The notes under the pieces are model-generated. The model was not told where the DNA came from, ran no database searches, and worked only from the letters and a program-made list of their open reading frames with translations. Below are positions 3,139-58,905 of a stretch of 64,000 nt of DNA, one piece after another. How positions within the stretch are numbered: position 1 is the stretch's first letter; every line of letters begins with the position of its first letter. Source of the DNA: Bacteroidota bacterium (GTDB lineage Bacteria; Bacteroidota; Bacteroidia; Chitinophagales; Chitinophagaceae); contig JAHEFK010000005.1 in the NCBI GenBank assembly GCA_024640225.1, positions 1 to 64,000 on the forward strand, in the 5' to 3' direction. The position numbers and the translations under genes are program-made.

Positions 3139-4779
3139 ATGCATAATAAATTAACTTTTGTTGCTTTAATAGCAGGTCTTTTGTTGCTTACTTTTCCAAG
3201 TGTAGCCCAGTCCGACCAAGCCTCTAAATGGGCAGATAGTGTTTACCAACAATTAAGCACCCGAGAGCGTATTGCCCAAATGATTATGGTGGCTGCCTAT
3301 TCTGGCACTAAAAAACAAAACGACTCTTTAATTAGATACTATATTAAAAACAAGCAAATTGGTGGGGTCATATTTATGCAAGGTGGTCCTGTAAGGCAAG
3401 CACGCCTTACCAACGAATGGCAAAGCAGTGCCCAAGTACCTTTACTAATTGCCATGGATGCAGAATGGGGATTAGGGATGCGTTTGGATAGTGTAAAGAA
3501 TTTTCCAAAACAAATGCAATTAGGCGCTACCCAAAATCCAGCATTTGCCTATCAAATAGGCGCTTCTATTGCTCAACAATGCAAACTATTAGGTGTTCAC
3601 ATCAATTTCGGACCCGTAGTAGATGTCAATAATAATCCGAACAACCCGGTTATTAATTTGCGCTCTTATGGCGAACATAAAGAAGACGTGGCTCGCTTTT
3701 CTGAAGCCTATATCAAAGGGCTACAAGACAATGGAGTAATGGCTTGTGCTAAACACTTTCCAGGTCATGGCGATACCGATGCCGATTCTCATAAAGAATT
3801 ACCTATCATTACGAAATCCAAAGCATCTTTAGAAGCAGTAGAACTCTATCCGTTTGCAAGAGTGATAGCTAGTGGCGTGCAAAGCATTATGGTAGGTCAT
3901 TTGCAAGTACCTGCCCTTGAGCCTAATGAAAAATTACCGGCTACCTTATCTCCAGCGATTGTATCGGACTTGCTTAAAAAAGAAATGCATTTCAAGGGAT
4001 TAGTGATTACCGACGCCTTAAATATGCAAGGTGTTGCCAATTATTATCAACCAGGAGAAGTAGATTTAAAAGCATTCCAAGCAGGCAATGATATGTTGTT
4101 GTTCTCACAAGATCCTGAAAAAGCAATCAACAAAATTGAAATAGCGGTGAAAGAAAGTGCAGCACTAGCGGAAGCATTGTCTAATAGTGTGCGAAAAATA
4201 TTAATGGTCAAATACCAATATGGATTAACGCATCTGAAAAAAATTGACACGATAGGATTAGTAAAAAAATTAAATAGTACTACCGACAAAATTAATAGTG
4301 CTATTGCCCATCAAGCAATTACAGATGTAAAAGGCAATGCCAAAGAACTCTTAAAAAATGGGGAACATATCCATTTAATATACCTTCATAAAGCAATTGA
4401 TAGCACGCTAGAAAAAAGTGTATCTCAAAATTCGAAAATTCAATATCACCCTAAAATAGCACTAGCTGCTGCAGCTCAAATAATTGATACCGCCACGAAT
4501 CCTATTGTTATTGCTATTAACGGTTATAGCCCCTATCCGAATAATAATTTTGGCCTCAGCAATGATGAGCTTAACTTTTTGTCGAGCATTCAAAAAAATA
4601 AAAATGTTTGTCTAGCCTTTATTGGCAACCCCTATGCTATTCGATTTGCTCCCAAAGCAAGCGCATTGCTCGTTACTTATGAATCCAATATATATACTGA
4701 AACCGCTTTTATGGATTTCTTGATGAACCCCACTAAAAACAACAGTAAATTACCTATAACGCCAATTGGATTTGAATAA
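3139..4779 (+). CDS. secreted glycoside hydrolase family 3 protein, NagZ-like
   Basis: Probable beta-N-acetylhexosaminidase acting on peptidoglycan or related amino sugars outside the cytoplasm. The 546 residues start with a signal peptide (about 1-24, ending FPSVAQ). The NagZ-type signature KHFPGHG-X4-DSH lies near 205-218, supplying the His-Asp general acid/base pair, and the nucleophile Asp is in VITDALNMQG near 291. A C-terminal GH3_C-like region follows. In many Bacteroidota this module is the N-terminal half of a roughly 1,000-residue protein whose C-terminal half is a beta-lactamase domain. Here the gene stops by itself and the beta-lactamase gene follows after 4 nt. Function is family-based; the natural substrate is not shown. 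Confidence 0.88.
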   Translation: MHNKLTFVALIAGLLLLTFPSVAQSDQASKWADSVYQQLSTRERIAQMIMVAAYSGTKKQNDSLIRYYIKNKQIGGVIFMQGGPVRQARLTNEWQSSAQVPLLIAMDAEWGLGMRLDSVKNFPKQMQLGATQNPAFAYQIGASIAQQCKLLGVHINFGPVVDVNNNPNNPVINLRSYGEHKEDVARFSEAYIKGLQDNGVMACAKHFPGHGDTDADSHKELPIITKSKASLEAVELYPFARVIASGVQSIMVGHLQVPALEPNEKLPATLSPAIVSDLLKKEMHFKGLVITDALNMQGVANYYQPGEVDLKAFQAGNDMLLFSQDPEKAINKIEIAVKESAALAEALSNSVRKILMVKYQYGLTHLKKIDTIGLVKKLNSTTDKINSAIAHQAITDVKGNAKELLKNGEHIHLIYLHKAIDSTLEKSVSQNSKIQYHPKIALAAAAQIIDTATNPIVIAINGYSPYPNNNFGLSNDELNFLSSIQKNKNVCLAFIGNPYAIRFAPKASALLVTYESNIYTETAFMDFLMNPTKNNSKLPITPIGFE

Positions 4780-4783
4780 GGTT

Positions 4784-6127
4784 ATGAAATTACCTATACG
4801 CATACTTTACCTACTAATACTATTGATAGTTGTTACTGCCTTGCATGCGCAAGAAAAATTGTTGTATCAATTAAAACCTGCTAGTAGCCTTTCTGAAGTT
4901 GGTGTTGTTTTTGAAAATGAATTAAATCAAATTGACAGCTTGATGAAGCGCGCTATAGATGCAGGAGTTTTTCCTGGAGCACGCATACTAGCTGCAAGAA
5001 ATGGAAAGGTTTTTTACAATAAAGCTTTTGGTACTTTAGATGGTAATGAAGAAAACCCTGTAAATTTAAAAACCGTATACGACCTCGCATCGATTACGAA
5101 AATAGCAAGTACCACATTAGCTATTATGCGTTTATACGAACAGGGGAAAATTGATCTTAATAAAACCTTAGGAGATTATTTACCCATTACAAAAGGCACC
5201 AATAAAGAATTTTGTTTGCTTAAAGATTTGTTGATGCATCAGGCAGGCATGAAAAGTTGGATTCCTTTTTATAAATTTTTTAAAGACTCCAGTGCAGCAT
5301 TTAAAGAAGGAATTTTCAATAATTATAAAACTAAAACGTTTGCAATTGAAGTAGCAAAAGATCTTTTCATGAATGCTAGTTACAGAGATACTATTTGGCA
5401 AATGATTCTTGAAAGTCCACTTGAAAATAAAGGCAAAATGGTTTACAGCGATTTAGACTTTTATTTTCTAGGCGCTATTGTTCAACAGCTTACTGGCAAA
5501 ACCCTTGATCAGTATGTGTTTTCAGAATTTTATGAACCCATGGGTTTAAGAAAAACCGGCTATAAGCCTTTATCTATAATGGATGAATCTTTTATAGCAC
5601 CAACAGAAAATGATACTGTTTTCAGAAAACAGCTTATCAAAGGTTTTGTCCACGATCCTGGTGCTGCATTGTTTGGTGGTGTTGCAGGACATGCTGGTTT
5701 GTTTTCTAATGCGGCTGAATTAGCGGCGCTTATGCAAATGTTATTAAACGGCGGTAGTTACAAAGGCCGAGTGTATTTTAAAACCAGTACCATTCAATTA
5801 TTTACTAATTATCAATCTACTATTAGTAGAAAAGGATTTGGATTTGATAAACCACAAGCCAATGCGAATGATGCTGGTCCATGTAGCAACCATTGTAGCG
5901 CCTACACGTATGGTCACCAAGGATTTACAGGCACCTGTGTATGGGTAGATCCTAGTCAACAATTAGTATTTGTTTTTTTATCTAACAGAGTATTCCCCAA
6001 TGAAAACAGTGCTATAAACAAATGGAATATTCGCAGCTTAGTACAAGATTATATTTATAACGCTTTAGATGTTCCCGAAAATAAAGAGCGTAAATTAATT
6101 TATGATCAACAAATGAATAGCAAATAA
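4784..6127 (+). CDS. secreted serine hydrolase, class C beta-lactamase fold
   Basis: A 447-residue serine hydrolase of the beta-lactamase/penicillin-binding fold, probably acting on peptidoglycan peptides or esters in the periplasm. Seen: SITK (S-x-x-K nucleophile motif, near 103), YSD in the Y-x-N position (near 220) and HQGFTG in place of the K-T-G motif (near 379). I start it at the ATG at 4784, which gives a clean signal peptide (MKLPIRILYLLILLIVV..., ending ALHAQ); a TTG at 4766 would add six residues and overlap the GH3 gene. The 4-nt gap from the GH3 stop indicates one operon. It corresponds to the C-terminal half of GH3/beta-lactamase fusion proteins. Confidence 0.85.
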   Translation: MKLPIRILYLLILLIVVTALHAQEKLLYQLKPASSLSEVGVVFENELNQIDSLMKRAIDAGVFPGARILAARNGKVFYNKAFGTLDGNEENPVNLKTVYDLASITKIASTTLAIMRLYEQGKIDLNKTLGDYLPITKGTNKEFCLLKDLLMHQAGMKSWIPFYKFFKDSSAAFKEGIFNNYKTKTFAIEVAKDLFMNASYRDTIWQMILESPLENKGKMVYSDLDFYFLGAIVQQLTGKTLDQYVFSEFYEPMGLRKTGYKPLSIMDESFIAPTENDTVFRKQLIKGFVHDPGAALFGGVAGHAGLFSNAAELAALMQMLLNGGSYKGRVYFKTSTIQLFTNYQSTISRKGFGFDKPQANANDAGPCSNHCSAYTYGHQGFTGTCVWVDPSQQLVFVFLSNRVFPNENSAINKWNIRSLVQDYIYNALDVPENKERKLIYDQQMNSK

Positions 6128-49165: not shown

Positions 49166-49930
49166 ATGCAATTACCTGAGGGTAAACATATCTATTTTGC
49201 TTCTGATTTTCATTTGGGAATCCCCAATCAAAGCGCGAGTATATTAAGAGAAAAAAAAATATGTTCTTGGTTAGATGAAATAGCCCCTAATGCCCACACT
49301 ATTTTTTTAGTAGGTGATTTGTTCGATGCTTGGTTTGAATACAAACACGTGGTGCCTAAAGGTTATATTCGTTTTCTTGGAAAATTAGCCCAATTAAAAG
49401 ATCAAGGAATTCAAATTGAAATTTTTACCGGTAATCATGATTTATGGATGCGTGATTATTTTCAGTCAGAATTAAATATTCCGGTTCATCATCAACCAAT
49501 TGCTCGCAACTACAATAATAAAGCGTTTTATATTGGTCATGGAGATGGTTTAGGGCCTGGAGATAAAGGATATAAATTTCTAAAAAAGGTAATGACGAAT
49601 AAAGCTTTGCAATGGCTATACAGACGGATACACCCAGATACAGGTATTGCTATTGCTAATTGGTTTAGCCAATTGGGGCCTAAACATGGTGAAGGTCGTG
49701 AAGAACAATTTCAAGGTGCTGAGAAGGAGTGGTTGGTGCAGTTTTGTTTGTCCACAATTGAAAAAAATCACTTTGATTATTTTATCTTTGGACATCGACA
49801 TTTAGCTTTAGAATATCCTATCAAGGATTGTAGTGTTTATATCAATTTAGGAGATTGGATACGATTTGATAGCTATGCAGTATTCGACGGTACAAGTACA
49901 CGTCTTCAATATTACAAAAAGCATGATTAA
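49166..49930 (+). CDS. lpxH: UDP-2,3-diacylglucosamine diphosphatase (LpxH-like)
   Basis: Metallophosphoesterase of lipid A synthesis that cleaves UDP-2,3-diacylglucosamine to lipid X and UMP. The 254 residues have the metal motifs FASDFHLG (near 12), VGDLFDAWFEYK (near 49), TGNHDLW (near 90), YIGHGDG (near 127) and FGHRHLA (near 208). This set fits LpxH/LpxG-type enzymes; substrate is by family. The last 8 nt overlap the next gene. Confidence 0.9.
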   Translation: MQLPEGKHIYFASDFHLGIPNQSASILREKKICSWLDEIAPNAHTIFLVGDLFDAWFEYKHVVPKGYIRFLGKLAQLKDQGIQIEIFTGNHDLWMRDYFQSELNIPVHHQPIARNYNNKAFYIGHGDGLGPGDKGYKFLKKVMTNKALQWLYRRIHPDTGIAIANWFSQLGPKHGEGREEQFQGAEKEWLVQFCLSTIEKNHFDYFIFGHRHLALEYPIKDCSVYINLGDWIRFDSYAVFDGTSTRLQYYKKHD

Positions 49931-50399
49931 GCAATTAGTATTAATTCGACATGCTCAAGCAGCGGATCACAACAATGATTTTGAGAGAGCATTGAGTGCC
50001 TTTGGTAAAATCCAAATAGCATCTATAACAGAAAAAATATCGAAACAAGCAATAAAAATTGATAAAGTTCTTTACAGTGCAGCAAAGCGAACAAAACAAT
50101 CGGCGGAACGTATAGCAAGTTGTTTGGGTTATAAAATAGAACTGGAAGCAGATAATCAGCTCTATTTGTGTAGTGCAAGCTATTTGTATGATGCTATTGC
50201 TATGACAGACAATTCCATAGCAACCCTTTGTCTGATTGCGCACAACCCTTGCATAAGCGAATTTGCAAATAGATTAATTCAAGCACCTATTTACAAAGAC
50301 CTTGGAACAGCCGAAGTGCTTGTAGTCAATTTAAAAACCGACAACTGGACTGATATTTATCAAAACAACACAAGTAATTATTATAATATAGTACCTTAA
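49923..50399 (+). CDS. SixA-like phosphohistidine phosphatase
   Basis: A 158-residue histidine-phosphatase-superfamily protein that should remove phosphate from phosphohistidine. The RHG-type motif is LIRHAQA (H9), with the later AHNPC as the second catalytic histidine region and SAAKRTKQSAERI as the phosphate pocket. SixA acts on histidine phosphotransfer proteins; the target here is unknown. I start at the ATG at 49923, 57 nt inside a longer frame, because the family begins MIKQLVLIRHA. It overlaps lpxH by 8 nt. Confidence 0.85.
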   Translation: MIKQLVLIRHAQAADHNNDFERALSAFGKIQIASITEKISKQAIKIDKVLYSAAKRTKQSAERIASCLGYKIELEADNQLYLCSASYLYDAIAMTDNSIATLCLIAHNPCISEFANRLIQAPIYKDLGTAEVLVVNLKTDNWTDIYQNNTSNYYNIVP

Positions 50400-50406
50400 A
50401 TATACC

Positions 50407-51867
50407 ATGACCAAGACTGTAAGCACAAGCACTATCATAGACCAACTGAAAAAATTATTTGAACAAGAATTTGAAAGTGAAGCAATCACTATCGAATCAT
50501 TGCCGGTTTCGGGCTCTGATAGAAGATATTTTAGATTGAGTAATGATACCCATTCCGCTATTGGAACCTACAATCCCAATACAGCAGAAAACAATACCTA
50601 TTTTTATTTTACCGAATTATTTAAAAAGCATAATATTTCTATACCTATTTTATATAGAAAGGGTAAAGATCGAAAAACATATTTACAACAAGATTTAGGT
50701 AACACCTCTTTGTTTGATTTGTTAATGAAGGAAGGATTAACGGAAGAGGTAAAAAAACAATTCCATAATAGTTTAGAAATCTTAGCTAAAGTACAATGGT
50801 TGGCCGGTAGAGAAGTAGATTACAAACAATGTTTCTCTACACAACAATTTGATGAAAAAGCTATTTTTCAAGACCTCATGTACTTTAAATACTATTTCGC
50901 AGATATGCAAAAAGTGTTTTATAACAAACAGCTTTTAATTAGCGAAATGGAAGAACTATCTAAAGATTTAGGTAGAGTGCAGCCACAAATGCTTATGTAT
51001 AGAGATTTCCAGAGTAGAAATATCATGGTGCATGAAGGCAAGTTATATTTGATAGACTATCAAGGAAGCATGCAAGGGCCCGCACAATATGATATAGCTT
51101 CTTTATTGTGGCAAGCAAAAGCACAGTTACCCAATAAATGGAAAGAGGAATTGTTGAATGGTTATATACAAAGTATGAATGCACTGCCTATTTCTAAAAT
51201 GGATGAAATGCATTTTAGAAGAGGATATTTGCAATTTGTTTTATTAAGACTCTTACAAGTATTAGGTGCCTATGGTTTTAGAGGCCTGATTGAAAAGAAA
51301 CCACATTTTATTTCAAGTATAGCACCGGCCTTAAAAAACTTAGAAAGCTTTTTGTCTGACAATCCATCGTTACCTTCCTATCCAGAGTTAAGGTCATTAC
51401 TAGAAACCCTTTGCAGTGAGGAAATTCAAAAACGATATCAGACCATCACTACTCAACACAAGCAAAAATTAACTATTGAATTAAATAGTTTTTCATACAA
51501 AGAAAATGGCATCCCTAAAGACGAACATGGAAATGGCGGTGGATTTGTATTTGATTGCAGAGGTATATTAAATCCGGGAAGACAAGAACAATATAAAAAA
51601 CAAAGTGGTTTAGATATCGCCGTAAAACAATTTTTAGAAGAAGAAACCAATATGCTTGCTTTTTTAGATGACGCATTTTCTTTAGTTTCTATAAGCATTG
51701 AAGATTATATGCATAGAGGTTTTGAGCATTTAAGTATCAATTTTGGTTGCACTGGTGGTCAGCATCGTTCGGTATATGCAACAGAAAAAATGGCAAGCTA
51801 TATCAAAAGTAAATATGATGTCATTATTCAAATACAACATATCAATCAAAATAATTGGAAGAAATAA
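50407..51867 (+). CDS. fusion of aminoglycoside-phosphotransferase-like sugar kinase and RapZ C-terminal domain
   Basis: A 486-residue protein of two parts. Residues about 1-330 are an APH-fold kinase like AmgK: SGSDRRYFRLS near 37 and the catalytic YRDFQSRNIMVHEG near 200 (a Tyr replaces the usual His), followed by LIDYQGSMQGP. Residues about 352-486 are a RapZ C-terminal domain: KENGIPKDEHGNGGGFVFDC, CRGILNPGR and the phosphate-loop-like FGCTGGQHRSVYATE. In E. coli, RapZ-C senses glucosamine 6-phosphate and binds small RNA. A role in amino-sugar (cell wall) metabolism is inferred. The gene follows the SixA-like gene by 7 nt and ends at a terminator. Confidence 0.9.
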   Translation: MTKTVSTSTIIDQLKKLFEQEFESEAITIESLPVSGSDRRYFRLSNDTHSAIGTYNPNTAENNTYFYFTELFKKHNISIPILYRKGKDRKTYLQQDLGNTSLFDLLMKEGLTEEVKKQFHNSLEILAKVQWLAGREVDYKQCFSTQQFDEKAIFQDLMYFKYYFADMQKVFYNKQLLISEMEELSKDLGRVQPQMLMYRDFQSRNIMVHEGKLYLIDYQGSMQGPAQYDIASLLWQAKAQLPNKWKEELLNGYIQSMNALPISKMDEMHFRRGYLQFVLLRLLQVLGAYGFRGLIEKKPHFISSIAPALKNLESFLSDNPSLPSYPELRSLLETLCSEEIQKRYQTITTQHKQKLTIELNSFSYKENGIPKDEHGNGGGFVFDCRGILNPGRQEQYKKQSGLDIAVKQFLEEETNMLAFLDDAFSLVSISIEDYMHRGFEHLSINFGCTGGQHRSVYATEKMASYIKSKYDVIIQIQHINQNNWKK

Positions 51868-51897
51868 AAAAAAGCGAACCATGGTTCGCTTTTTTTA
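51866..51897. terminator. bidirectional intrinsic terminator after the kinase-RapZ gene
   Basis: Palindromic stem AAAAAAAGCGAACCA / TGGTTCGCTTTTTTT, which works in both directions between the convergent genes. Confidence 0.9.
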
Positions 51898-56895: not shown

Positions 56896-58155
56896 ATGCG
56901 CAAGACCCTTATTCTACTATTGGTAATCACAAATTTCTATGCTAGTGCACAGATTAGTAATGGAATAAAACCTATCATAGATACCCTTTGCAGTCCTTAT
57001 TTTTCAGGAAGAAGTTACGTAGATGGCGGTTGTGAAAAAGCAGCTAATTTTTTGACTACTTATTTTAATCAAATCGGTATTGATAATAAAAATATTTACA
57101 CACAAGAATACCCGTTTAATGTAAATACTTTTCCAAAAAAAATGCAAGTTGTAATCAATGATAGTCAGAGATTAGCAGCAGGAATAGCCTATTTAGTTGA
57201 CGCAGCAAGCGCTGGCGGGCACTACAGCAAACTGATACCTCAAGGATTATCACTAGCGTCCATACAATCAAAAGAACAACTTCTCCAGCTTTTCAAAAAA
57301 CTAAATACCAAGCACTTCGCCTATATAATTGACAGCTTAGAACTGTTAGCCAAATTGCTACATACCAATAGAGATCAAATTTTGATGACATTACCCAAAG
57401 GCGTATTTATCATACCCGTTCCGAAAAAATTAACCTGGGATGTTGCCACCTGGCACAATAAAGCATGTGTTATTTACATGCTGGAAAGCTATCTTACAGA
57501 TAATTTTTCATCGATTGATATTGATATAGATCAACGTTATATTAAACACAGCCATCAGAAAAACATATTAGCTCTTATACCAGGAAAGAGTGATTCTATT
57601 TTAATTTTTTCAGCACATTATGATCACCTTGGAAAAATGGGTTCTGCTACTTATTTTCCGGGGGCTAGTGATAATGCATCCGGCACGGCAATGCTACTTA
57701 TGCTTGCCCAATACTATAAAGAAAAAAATGACAATAAATACACTATGGTATTTATTGCATTTAGTGGAGAAGAAGCTGGTTTACTTGGATCTCATTATTT
57801 TATTGAACATCCTTTAATTAATTTAAATAAAATTAAATTTCTTACCAATATAGATATTGCAGGAGACGCTACCAATGGCATTACGGTTGTCAATAGCACT
57901 GTATATAAAAATCAATTCGATTTGCTTACAACACAAAATTCACAATCAAATTTACTGCCAGAAATACGAAGCAGGGGCAAGGCAGCTATAAGTGATCACT
58001 ACTATTTTAGCGAAAAGAATATTCCTTCTTTCTTTATTTATACTAATGGTGGCAAAGGCTATTATCATGATATTTATGACCAAGCAAATGAATTAAGCTT
58101 GCATAATATTGATAACTTATTTAATTTATTAATTCAATTTTATAGTAAACTATAA
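56896..58155 (+). CDS. secreted M28-family zinc aminopeptidase
   Basis: A 419-residue exported peptidase. After a signal peptide (about 1-18, ending YASAQ) the catalytic domain carries the M28 metal ligands: His in FSAHYDHLG (near 237), Asp in GASDNASGTAM, Glu in SGEEAGLLGS, Asp in NIDIAGD and a late His in SDHYYF. A long region (about 60-220) precedes the core and may be a PA-like or recognition domain. It is the last gene of the plus-strand flippase-DUF3108-M28 set and overlaps the convergent nucleotidyltransferase end by 6 nt. Confidence 0.9.
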   Translation: MRKTLILLLVITNFYASAQISNGIKPIIDTLCSPYFSGRSYVDGGCEKAANFLTTYFNQIGIDNKNIYTQEYPFNVNTFPKKMQVVINDSQRLAAGIAYLVDAASAGGHYSKLIPQGLSLASIQSKEQLLQLFKKLNTKHFAYIIDSLELLAKLLHTNRDQILMTLPKGVFIIPVPKKLTWDVATWHNKACVIYMLESYLTDNFSSIDIDIDQRYIKHSHQKNILALIPGKSDSILIFSAHYDHLGKMGSATYFPGASDNASGTAMLLMLAQYYKEKNDNKYTMVFIAFSGEEAGLLGSHYFIEHPLINLNKIKFLTNIDIAGDATNGITVVNSTVYKNQFDLLTTQNSQSNLLPEIRSRGKAAISDHYYFSEKNIPSFFIYTNGGKGYYHDIYDQANELSLHNIDNLFNLLIQFYSKL

Positions 58156-58845
58156 ATTGGGTAGCAGCTGTTGCGCTTTTTCAAAATCCTCTGGTATTCC
58201 TATGTCTATAAAAAACCCATCCGTTTTAAATCCATAGATTGCCTTATTAGACAACTGTAATTCAAAAAAGTCTTTTTCAACAGAAAACACTTCACTAGAA
58301 GGTACGTTTTCCAAGAAACGATCTTTGTTTACAATAAAAAAACCGGCATTAATTAAACCCTTTTCGCAAGAACGTTTTTCTTCAAATGAATAAATACATT
58401 GCCTATCATCCATATTTACTAAACCATACCTGTCAAAGTGTTCCATTTCTTTTAATGCTATGGTAGCCATAGCCTTGTTATTTATATGCTGTTGATACAT
58501 TGTACGCATGTTGAGTTCCAAATACGTATCTGCATTGATTACCCAAACATGCTGATCTGTTGCAAACGGAAGCGCTTTTTTTATTGCCCCTCCTGTTCCT
58601 AATGCCTGTTCCTCAATAACACAGGTATAGGTCCATGTTTTCTCTTTAGCTTGCAAATAATCAAGTAGTTGCTGGTGTTGATGACCTAATGAAAAGATAA
58701 AATGATGTACCCCTTGCTCATTTAAAAACTGTAATAGATAATCAAGAAATGGCTTATTTCTGATACTTGCTAATGCTTTAGGAATATCTTTTAAAACTGT
58801 TTGTAAACGAGTAGCTTTACCACCAGCCAAAATAATAGCTTGCAT
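58150..58845 (-). CDS. hddC: nucleotidyltransferase, D-glycero-alpha-D-manno-heptose 1-phosphate guanylyltransferase-like
   Basis: A 231-residue NTP-transferase. Seen: LAGGKATRLQTVLKDIPKAL (residues 6-25), the magnesium motif NADTYLEL near 106, and the C-terminal FFIDIGIPEDFEKAQ. The end motif and length match HddC, which makes GDP-heptose and would work with the HddA-like kinase at 18298-19320. MurU-type UDP-MurNAc synthesis is the main alternative. The ATG at 58845 is used; the longer frame to 58896 crosses a terminator. Confidence 0.75.
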   Translation of the reverse strand: MQAIILAGGKATRLQTVLKDIPKALASIRNKPFLDYLLQFLNEQGVHHFIFSLGHQHQQLLDYLQAKEKTWTYTCVIEEQALGTGGAIKKALPFATDQHVWVINADTYLELNMRTMYQQHINNKAMATIALKEMEHFDRYGLVNMDDRQCIYSFEEKRSCEKGLINAGFFIVNKDRFLENVPSSEVFSVEKDFFELQLSNKAIYGFKTDGFFIDIGIPEDFEKAQQLLPNL

Positions 58846-58872
58846 ATTTTGTAATTGCTTTTGTATAAAATT

Positions 58873-58905
58873 AAAAAGGGTTGACCAATTAGCCAACCCT
58901 TTTTA
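58873..58905 (-). terminator. intrinsic terminator of the SusCD/OmpA operon
   Basis: Stem AAAAAGGGTTG / CAACCCTTTTT with a 10-nt loop and a T run on the minus strand, 16 nt beyond the OmpA/TSP3 stop. Confidence 0.82.

Follow-up and report, generated by a model that had tools for sequence, protein, structure and literature searches.

An AmgK-like kinase fused to a RapZ C-terminal domain in Bacteroidota: a probable N-acetylmuramic acid salvage kinase with a built-in sugar-phosphate domain

AmgK and MurU form the anabolic route of peptidoglycan recycling in Pseudomonas and Caulobacter, and RapZ is the RNase adapter of Escherichia coli, known as YvcJ in Bacillus. Here we describe a single gene joining an AmgK-like kinase to the C-terminal domain of RapZ (RapZ-C), found in a window of 64,000 nucleotides (the whole stretch of DNA analysed, positions 1 to 64,000 of contig JAHEFK010000005.1) from a member of the Chitinophagaceae. 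The encoded protein is, on balance, probably a kinase for the salvage of N-acetylmuramic acid (MurNAc) that carries its own sugar-phosphate domain, and the architecture is widespread in Bacteroidota.

Passages of PMC5371407 state that Proteobacteria carry either MurQ or AmgK-MurU. The AmgK-MurU route is also mentioned for Tannerella forsythia in excerpts of PMC7670621 and PMC13046382, and the accessible parts of two further papers on this species (PMC10465942, PMC5790795) are about another kinase, MurK, and never mention AmgK. The pocket of E. coli RapZ binds sulfate or malonate, according to sections of PMC5737377. As far as the available text of PMC9841335 goes, the substitutions H190A, G249W, R253A, C247A and C247S abolish RapZ function, the SH group of the cysteine may be catalytic, and soaking with glucosamine 6-phosphate (GlcN6P) left density of a probably transformed product. 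Khan and Gorke, in an extract of their article, liken the pocket to a tyrosine-phosphatase loop and suggest GlcN6P hydrolysis (PMC7199280). Since that likeness had been described there, the phosphate loop is not novel here; what is new is its invariance in a domain without His190 and the basic tail, one tied to the AmgK-MurU pathway. Our literature search, which covered few subscription papers, found no account linking AmgK with RapZ, none of a RapZ C-terminal domain with a kinase in Bacteroidetes, and a single one, PMC7199280, that brings RapZ together with tyrosine phosphatase; the co-mention of RapZ and Bacteroides that it returned is a work whose title concerns E. coli phage resistance.

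The fusion protein and its two halves

The gene and its landmarks are as follows.

50407..51867, plus strand: AmgK-like kinase/RapZ-C fusion, a single open reading frame (ORF) with an ATG start, 486 amino acids
50407..51441, plus strand: kinase domain, residues 1-345, placed by alignment to 3csv (model range 8-345) and the AmgK profile at 12-289
50998..51021, plus strand: catalytic loop YRDFQSRN, residues 198-205; R199, D200, F201, R204 and N205 invariant in 27 fusions
51052..51063, plus strand: motif IDYQ, residues 216-219, presumably metal-binding by analogy with APH kinases; I216, D217 and Q219 invariant in 27 fusions
51457..51867, plus strand: RapZ C-terminal domain, residues 351-486 and stop, by PF22740 and the fold match to 5o5q_B
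51535..51543, plus strand: GGG, residues 377-379, invariant in 38 of 38 fused or split domains
51571..51579, plus strand: NPG, residues 389-391, in 38 of 38 aligned domains and 80 of 80 named loci
51745..51771, plus strand: GCTGGQHRS, residues 447-455, a Cys-X5-Arg-Ser phosphate loop; in the model the strand ends at 448 and the helix starts at 454

An earlier note, made from the sequence alone, had read the gene as an AmgK-like kinase joined to RapZ-C; Pfam, NCBIfam, the PDB and AlphaFold all bear this out, the profile search that it proposed for both halves matched APH/AmgK and RapZ-C, respectively, and its two kinase motifs, SGSDRRYFR and YRDFQSRN, are present. In Pfam, RapZ_C (PF22740) matches residues 356-478 with E 7e-29 and 100.9 bits against a cut-off of 27 (E 5.3e-30 for the domain alone), and APH (PF01636) matches residues 178-254 with E 2.9e-9 and 37.5 bits against 23.2. 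A sequence search of the PDB returned the C-terminal domain of E. coli RapZ (5o5s, E 2.6e-13) and the APH-family protein 3csv (E 1.4e-10). The full-length RapZ profile NF003828 scored 92.8 bits against a cut-off of 244, with only profile positions 143-274 of 278 matched; the N-terminal P-loop NTPase domain of RapZ (PF03668) is not found in the protein by Pfam and has no match in the genome. AlphaFold models the whole protein with a mean pLDDT (its per-residue confidence score) of 89.3, the linker at 347-351 being poorly predicted, and RapZ-C alone with 95.8; the latter superposes on E. coli RapZ (5o5q_B) with Z 19.5 and a root-mean-square deviation (rmsd) of 1.6 over 123 residues.

For the kinase half, AmgK (NF045759) is the top kinase profile in NCBIfam (E 2.5e-19 over residues 12-289), and 3csv is the best structural match (Z 29.2, rmsd 2.9, 309 residues aligned). 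The catalytic Asp and Asn and the metal-binding Asp (D200, N205, D217) do not vary among the 27 fusions, and neither do R199, F201, R204, I216 and Q219. The replacement of the HRD-type His by Tyr, pointed out in the earlier note, is real but no oddity of this gene: among 72 named loci read by script, the position holds Tyr in 52, Phe in 18 and Leu in one, the motif not being found in one. Because the change is family-wide, a subfamily trait that leaves the catalytic residues in place, it is no sign of a dead kinase.

Distribution in Bacteroidota

The distribution was followed in 296 Bacteroidota genomes that are at least 90% complete and are not independent of one another (labels: G, genome, with G000 the window's own; L, locus; f, family). 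The fusion protein as query matches in 100 of them. RapZ_C occurs in 36, always together with the kinase: the two are fused in 27, lie in adjacent separate ORFs in seven (G012, G095 and G031, corresponding to loci L021, L022 and L029, and G210, G265, G277 and G281) and stand at distant places in two (G180, G271). In G031 and in each of the six f4 genomes, RapZ-C forms a protein of its own. The remaining 64 genomes with a kinase match, G009 (34% identity) and 63 members of f17 (22-28% identity), lack RapZ-C.

With a threshold fixed before the search (E <= 1e-30), a MurU-like gene was found in 37 of the 296 genomes, namely the 36 with RapZ-C and G009, and in none of the remaining 259; the weakest match, in G271 (8.5e-32), is near the threshold. 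This co-occurrence has a Fisher p of 5e-48, relatedness ignored, and spans 11 families. Kinase and MurU-like genes lie within 500 bp of each other in 28 of the 37 genomes, kinase, RapZ-C and MurU-like gene being three consecutive ORFs in L021, L022 and L029, and MurU (NF045761) is the top NCBIfam profile for all four neighbour genes scanned. The large family f17 has a diverged AmgK-like kinase and lacks RapZ-C, AnmK, MurQ and, at the same threshold, a MurU-like gene. The window also holds a second, distant nucleotidyltransferase (58150-58896, minus strand; 26% identity to the MurU-like query, E 6.6e-7).

MurQ was counted at E < 1e-50, read from the match listing; all 296 genomes show at least one match at E <= 0.001, and weak matches were put down to other SIS-domain proteins. 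By this count MurQ is absent from 20 of the 36 RapZ-C genomes, from G009 and from all f17 members, two of which (G056, G288) have neither kinase nor MurQ. All 194 genomes outside f17 that lack the kinase have MurQ; conversely, 21 genomes outside f17 lack MurQ and all 21 have the kinase. Because MurU-like genes co-occur with it and every MurQ-less genome outside f17 carries it, the kinase is rather likely to serve MurNAc salvage together with MurU. The same exact co-occurrence and distribution support the earlier reading of an amino-sugar kinase, more precisely a predicted AmgK-type anomeric kinase for MurNAc and N-acetylglucosamine (GlcNAc).

AnmK, a possible source of MurNAc 6-phosphate (MurNAc-6-P), is present in 26 of the 36 RapZ-C genomes (weakly in G216, 1e-10) against 181 of 260 genomes without RapZ-C; the expectation that RapZ-C tracks AnmK if it is a MurNAc-6-P phosphatase is thus borne out only in part. 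None of the kinase-bearing genomes without RapZ-C (63 f17 members and G009) has AnmK, f17 being one clade. BcrAD_BadFG proteins (E < 1e-20, about 300 amino acids) are found in nine of the 10 AnmK-less RapZ-C genomes against four of the 26 with AnmK; the tenth, G230, reaches only 7e-6, and G009 has no match. These kinases might supply sugar 6-phosphates in the nine genomes; the pattern, confounded by clade, is no more than compatible with this. The window's own genome has AnmK, lacks MurQ, has a MurU-like gene and an intact MurB. Its HAD_2 search for MupP gave four places, two above the cut-off; the three scanned were named YjjG, glucose-1-phosphatase and GmhB-type and none MupP, the presence of a MupP model in the library being uncertain and other phosphatase families not searched. 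A murA deletion with MurNAc auxotrophy was also considered for this genome and dropped, because the interrupted stretch holds an assembly gap of 100 N that splits the murA match (G000:C9:18948-19046, about 3450-3550 of L144; the profile search gave two matches with the middle missing).

A set of named loci, the best 80 of at least 585 and therefore leaning to close relatives, extends the picture. In 46 of the 80, a MurU-like gene follows downstream in the same orientation at a distance of 400 bp or less; when only the 75 loci offering 900 bases of room or more are counted, 45 have it. GCTGG[QR]HRS and NPG are present in all 80 (72 by script, eight by eye). The hosts include Bacteroides, Parabacteroides, Phocaeicola and Alloprevotella; the fusion also appears in metagenome-assembled genomes (MAGs) labelled Ignavibacteria, Calditrichia, Delongbacteria, Elusimicrobia and Acidobacteriaceae, labels that are possibly wrong. 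In Bacteroides finegoldii and Parabacteroides distasonis (NZ_OY725912.1 and NZ_OY725790.1; L148, L149), RefSeq names the protein "RNase adapter RapZ" and the next gene "nucleotidyltransferase family protein", and with that label the architecture stands in databases under a misleading name. Among phage records, 42 have a match to the fusion; five short unannotated faecal "Bacteriophage sp." contigs (MT837443.1, MT839161.1, MT836462.1, MT837446.1, MT839078.1) cover more than 80% of it and are probably bacterial DNA filed as phage.

Possible roles of the RapZ domain and rival readings

To see which RapZ residues persist, 38 fused or split domains were aligned with five canonical RapZ proteins (E. 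coli, Listeria, Paracoccus, Fusobacterium, Acinetobacter). The E. coli residues Cys247, Thr248, Gly249, Gly250, His252, Arg253 and Ser254 are kept in 38 of 38 domains (C448, T449, G450, G451, H453, R454 and S455 here, invariant also when only the 27 fusions are counted), as are Asp182 and Arg184; Fusobacterium RapZ itself has Ser at Thr248. D372 and D383 are invariant Asp residues across the 38 domains. Lys or Arg stands at the Lys170 position in 35 of 38 and at the Arg196 position in 32. Other positions have changed throughout: His190, which is His in canonical RapZ and Tyr in Fusobacterium, is Gly in all 38 (G391 here), Trp191, canonically Trp or Tyr, is Arg or Lys in all 38, and Arg238 is Phe in 37 and Tyr in one. 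Neither Lys270 nor the Lys281-Arg282-Lys283 tail found in E. coli RapZ is conserved in the 38 domains, the tail being variable among canonical proteins too (not conserved in Acinetobacter and Fusobacterium, basic in Listeria). The GGG at 377-379 is absent from the four canonical proteins that cover that stretch, the Fusobacterium sequence missing its front part.

The loop carries a CX5R(S/T) signature on a strand-loop-helix, both in sequence and in the AlphaFold model. Searches of the PDB and Pfam with RapZ-C gave no sequence match to a Cys-dependent phosphatase, and in the fold search DUSP10 reached Z 5.0 across 88 residues, a score shared by unrelated folds. Similarity to the phosphofructokinase fold was higher (Z 6.9) and agrees with that published for RapZ, as given in parts of PMC5737377.

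We propose a mechanism in three steps. First, the N-terminal domain would act like AmgK and phosphorylate C1 of MurNAc, possibly also of GlcNAc, after which the unlinked MurU-like uridylyltransferase of the same genome (G000:C7:114278-114994) would convert the product to UDP-MurNAc. Second, the Cys-X5-Arg-Ser loop of RapZ-C would bind the phosphate of MurNAc-6-P, GlcNAc 6-phosphate or GlcN6P; we are confident that the domain acts on such a small metabolite and not on RNA. Finally, the bound sugar phosphate may tune the kinase, a branch that we hold possible but short of probable, or the invariant Cys may help to hydrolyse the sugar phosphate, which we hold more doubtful.

Under the first branch RapZ-C could be purely a sensor, binding GlcN6P or another precursor and switching the kinase allosterically without any Cys chemistry, a serious contender to which we would give somewhat less than an even chance. 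The C-terminal domain of E. coli RapZ binds GlcN6P with a dissociation constant (KD) of 10 nM by surface plasmon resonance, as reported in a portion of PMC7073468, the pocket residues T248, G249, H252 and R253 are kept, and 27 of the 36 genomes have RapZ-C joined to the kinase in one protein. A sensor, however, does not require the Cys, which is kept in 38 of 38 domains and 80 of 80 loci, although C247S also abolishes function in E. coli. His190 is lost; moreover, separate RapZ-C proteins in the six f4 genomes and G031, and RapZ-C genes remote from the kinase gene in G180 and G271, are odd for a switch acting in cis. Self-regulation of the kinase by a cell-wall sugar, as the earlier note had envisaged, is possible.

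Under the second branch the fusion would be a bifunctional enzyme whose RapZ-C, as a Cys-dependent sugar-6-phosphate phosphatase, replaces MupP, one protein taking MurNAc-6-P (for example from AnmK) to MurNAc and on to MurNAc 1-phosphate, in effect a two-step phosphomutation from the 6- to the 1-phosphate. The invariant Cys speaks for it, as does the occurrence of RapZ-C as a separate protein in nine genomes, next to the kinase in seven and far from it in two, and a fusion would unite neighbouring pathway steps; against it stand the retention of RapZ-C in the 10 genomes without AnmK, the loss of His190 and a likeness to phosphatase folds at background level. We regard this as a tentative and rather unlikely proposal. 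If true, E. coli RapZ would have branched off, as an RNA binder, from an ancient domain that dephosphorylated cell-wall sugars.

Several observations weigh against MurNAc salvage with a built-in sugar-phosphate domain. The AmgK profile score is 69.5 bits, far under its cut-off of 550, and the four neighbour genes score 118-147 bits with MurU NF045761 against a cut-off of 250. Kinase and MurU-like gene are not neighbours in nine of the 37 genomes, the window's own included. Sixteen of the 37 also carry MurQ, so that the MurQ and kinase-MurU routes are not exclusive, and 10 of the 36 RapZ-C genomes lack AnmK, so that AnmK-derived MurNAc-6-P is no universal substrate. As for BcrAD_BadFG, matches also occur in 18 f17 genomes without RapZ-C, and the family is present in the f16 and f34 clades in any case. 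In RapZ-C itself, the fold resembles dual-specificity phosphatases no more than background, His190, which E. coli RapZ needs, is gone, and some RNA-contacting residues (K170, R184 and mostly R196) are retained.

Further rivals arise from the neighbouring genes in the window.

49166..49930, plus strand: LpxH-like phosphoesterase (LpxH-type NF003743, 76.9 bits against an NCBIfam cut-off of 134)
49926..50399, plus strand: SixA-like histidine phosphatase (SixA profile, 51.4 bits against an NCBIfam cut-off of 74.5)
51867..51896, no strand assigned: terminator-like hairpin directly after the fusion gene, matching on both strands

The ATG of the SixA-like gene at 49926 overlaps the lpxH-like stop by 5 bases and its end lies 7 bases upstream of the fusion start, so that both genes stand directly upstream as first noted, each scoring under its NCBIfam cut-off. 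The hairpin is weak by itself, with two sites found against 1.5 expected in shuffles. The order lpxH-like, sixA-like, fusion is shared by the closest named relatives, L064-L067 (MAGs under the titles Flavipsychrobacter, Sphingobacteriales, Bacteroidetes and Taibaiella), and by G017 (L002), and in L064 and L065 the SixA-like gene runs 4 bases into the fusion gene; the two genes thus travel with the fusion as a gene string in its own clade. Outside this local arrangement, the neighbour that recurs is the MurU-like uridylyltransferase. Further off in the window lie an ORF of the GH3 family with an apparent signal peptide (3139-4779) and, after it, one that by eye resembles a serine hydrolase of the beta-lactamase kind (4766-6127).

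A kinase for another amino sugar or an envelope sugar, such as one of lipopolysaccharide, would suit the LpxH-like neighbour and the gene order of this clade, and the fold also resembles N-acetylhexosamine 1-kinase (Z 21.1); yet no lpxH cluster reaches five of the 80 named loci, the MurU-like gene is the recurring neighbour across families, and the anti-correlation with MurQ indicates MurNAc, which makes this improbable. Less probable still, the SixA-like protein and not RapZ-C could be the MurNAc-6-P phosphatase of this clade. It belongs to the same gene string, 7 bases upstream here and overlapping by 4 in L064 and L065, and both f1 genomes with this order (G000, G017) lack MurQ; however, inspection by eye, with no search made, showed no SixA-like gene in the same orientation up to 1.5 kb from the fusion at any of 28 other loci, whereas RapZ-C accompanies kinase and MurU-like gene in 36 of 37 genomes. 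RNA-level control, the other role raised in the earlier note, in which RapZ-C would bind a small RNA as RapZ does GlmZ and couple it to cell-wall sugar status, is very improbable, because although the Lys170, Arg184 and Arg196 equivalents are largely kept, His190, Arg238, Lys270 and the basic tail are not, the genome has no RapZ N-domain, and the RNA-binding domain is described in part of PMC7073468 as restricted to Enterobacteriaceae, the tail being basic in Listeria too.

In the favoured reading, that of a MurNAc-salvage kinase with a sugar-phosphate domain, a domain known from RNA regulation is placed in a metabolic pathway across a large phylum. This bears on the role of RapZ-C before RNA binding, on whether its essential Cys is catalytic, and on which enzyme takes the 6-phosphate off MurNAc in Bacteroidota; if confirmed, it would be relevant to cell-wall recycling in gut bacteria such as Bacteroides and Parabacteroides, where the same two genes occur as a pair.

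Comparison with known systems

A MAG labelled Tannerella (L100) carries the fusion; the AmgK studied in T. forsythia may or may not be of this kind. The AmgK-MurU pair is resembled in best profiles, in adjacency and in a distribution against MurQ like that in Proteobacteria, as sketched in passages of PMC5371407. The fusion differs from AmgK by carrying RapZ-C, by a score far under the cut-off and by Tyr or Phe in place of the HRD His, 3csv having HRDF; a further difference from the AmgK-MurU route is that no MupP-type HAD protein was recognised in this genome, three of four HAD_2 places being scanned.

With RapZ, the domain shares the C-terminal sequence, the fold (Z 19.5) and the phosphate-loop residues; it differs in lacking the P-loop NTPase domain, in the change of H190 to Gly, in its fusion to a kinase, in the GGG before the VFD strand and in having no conserved basic tail. 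Tyrosine and dual-specificity phosphatases of the Cys-dependent kind resemble RapZ-C in C-x-x-G-x-x-R-S on a strand-loop-helix. The consensus of protein tyrosine phosphatases has His before the Cys, whereas RapZ-C has Gly, and the overall fold similarity is at background. Finally, MupP, the MurNAc-6-P phosphatase of Pseudomonas, is a HAD-like enzyme (per excerpts of PMC5371407) with a fold unrelated to RapZ-C; were RapZ-C a phosphatase, the two would share the step before AmgK.
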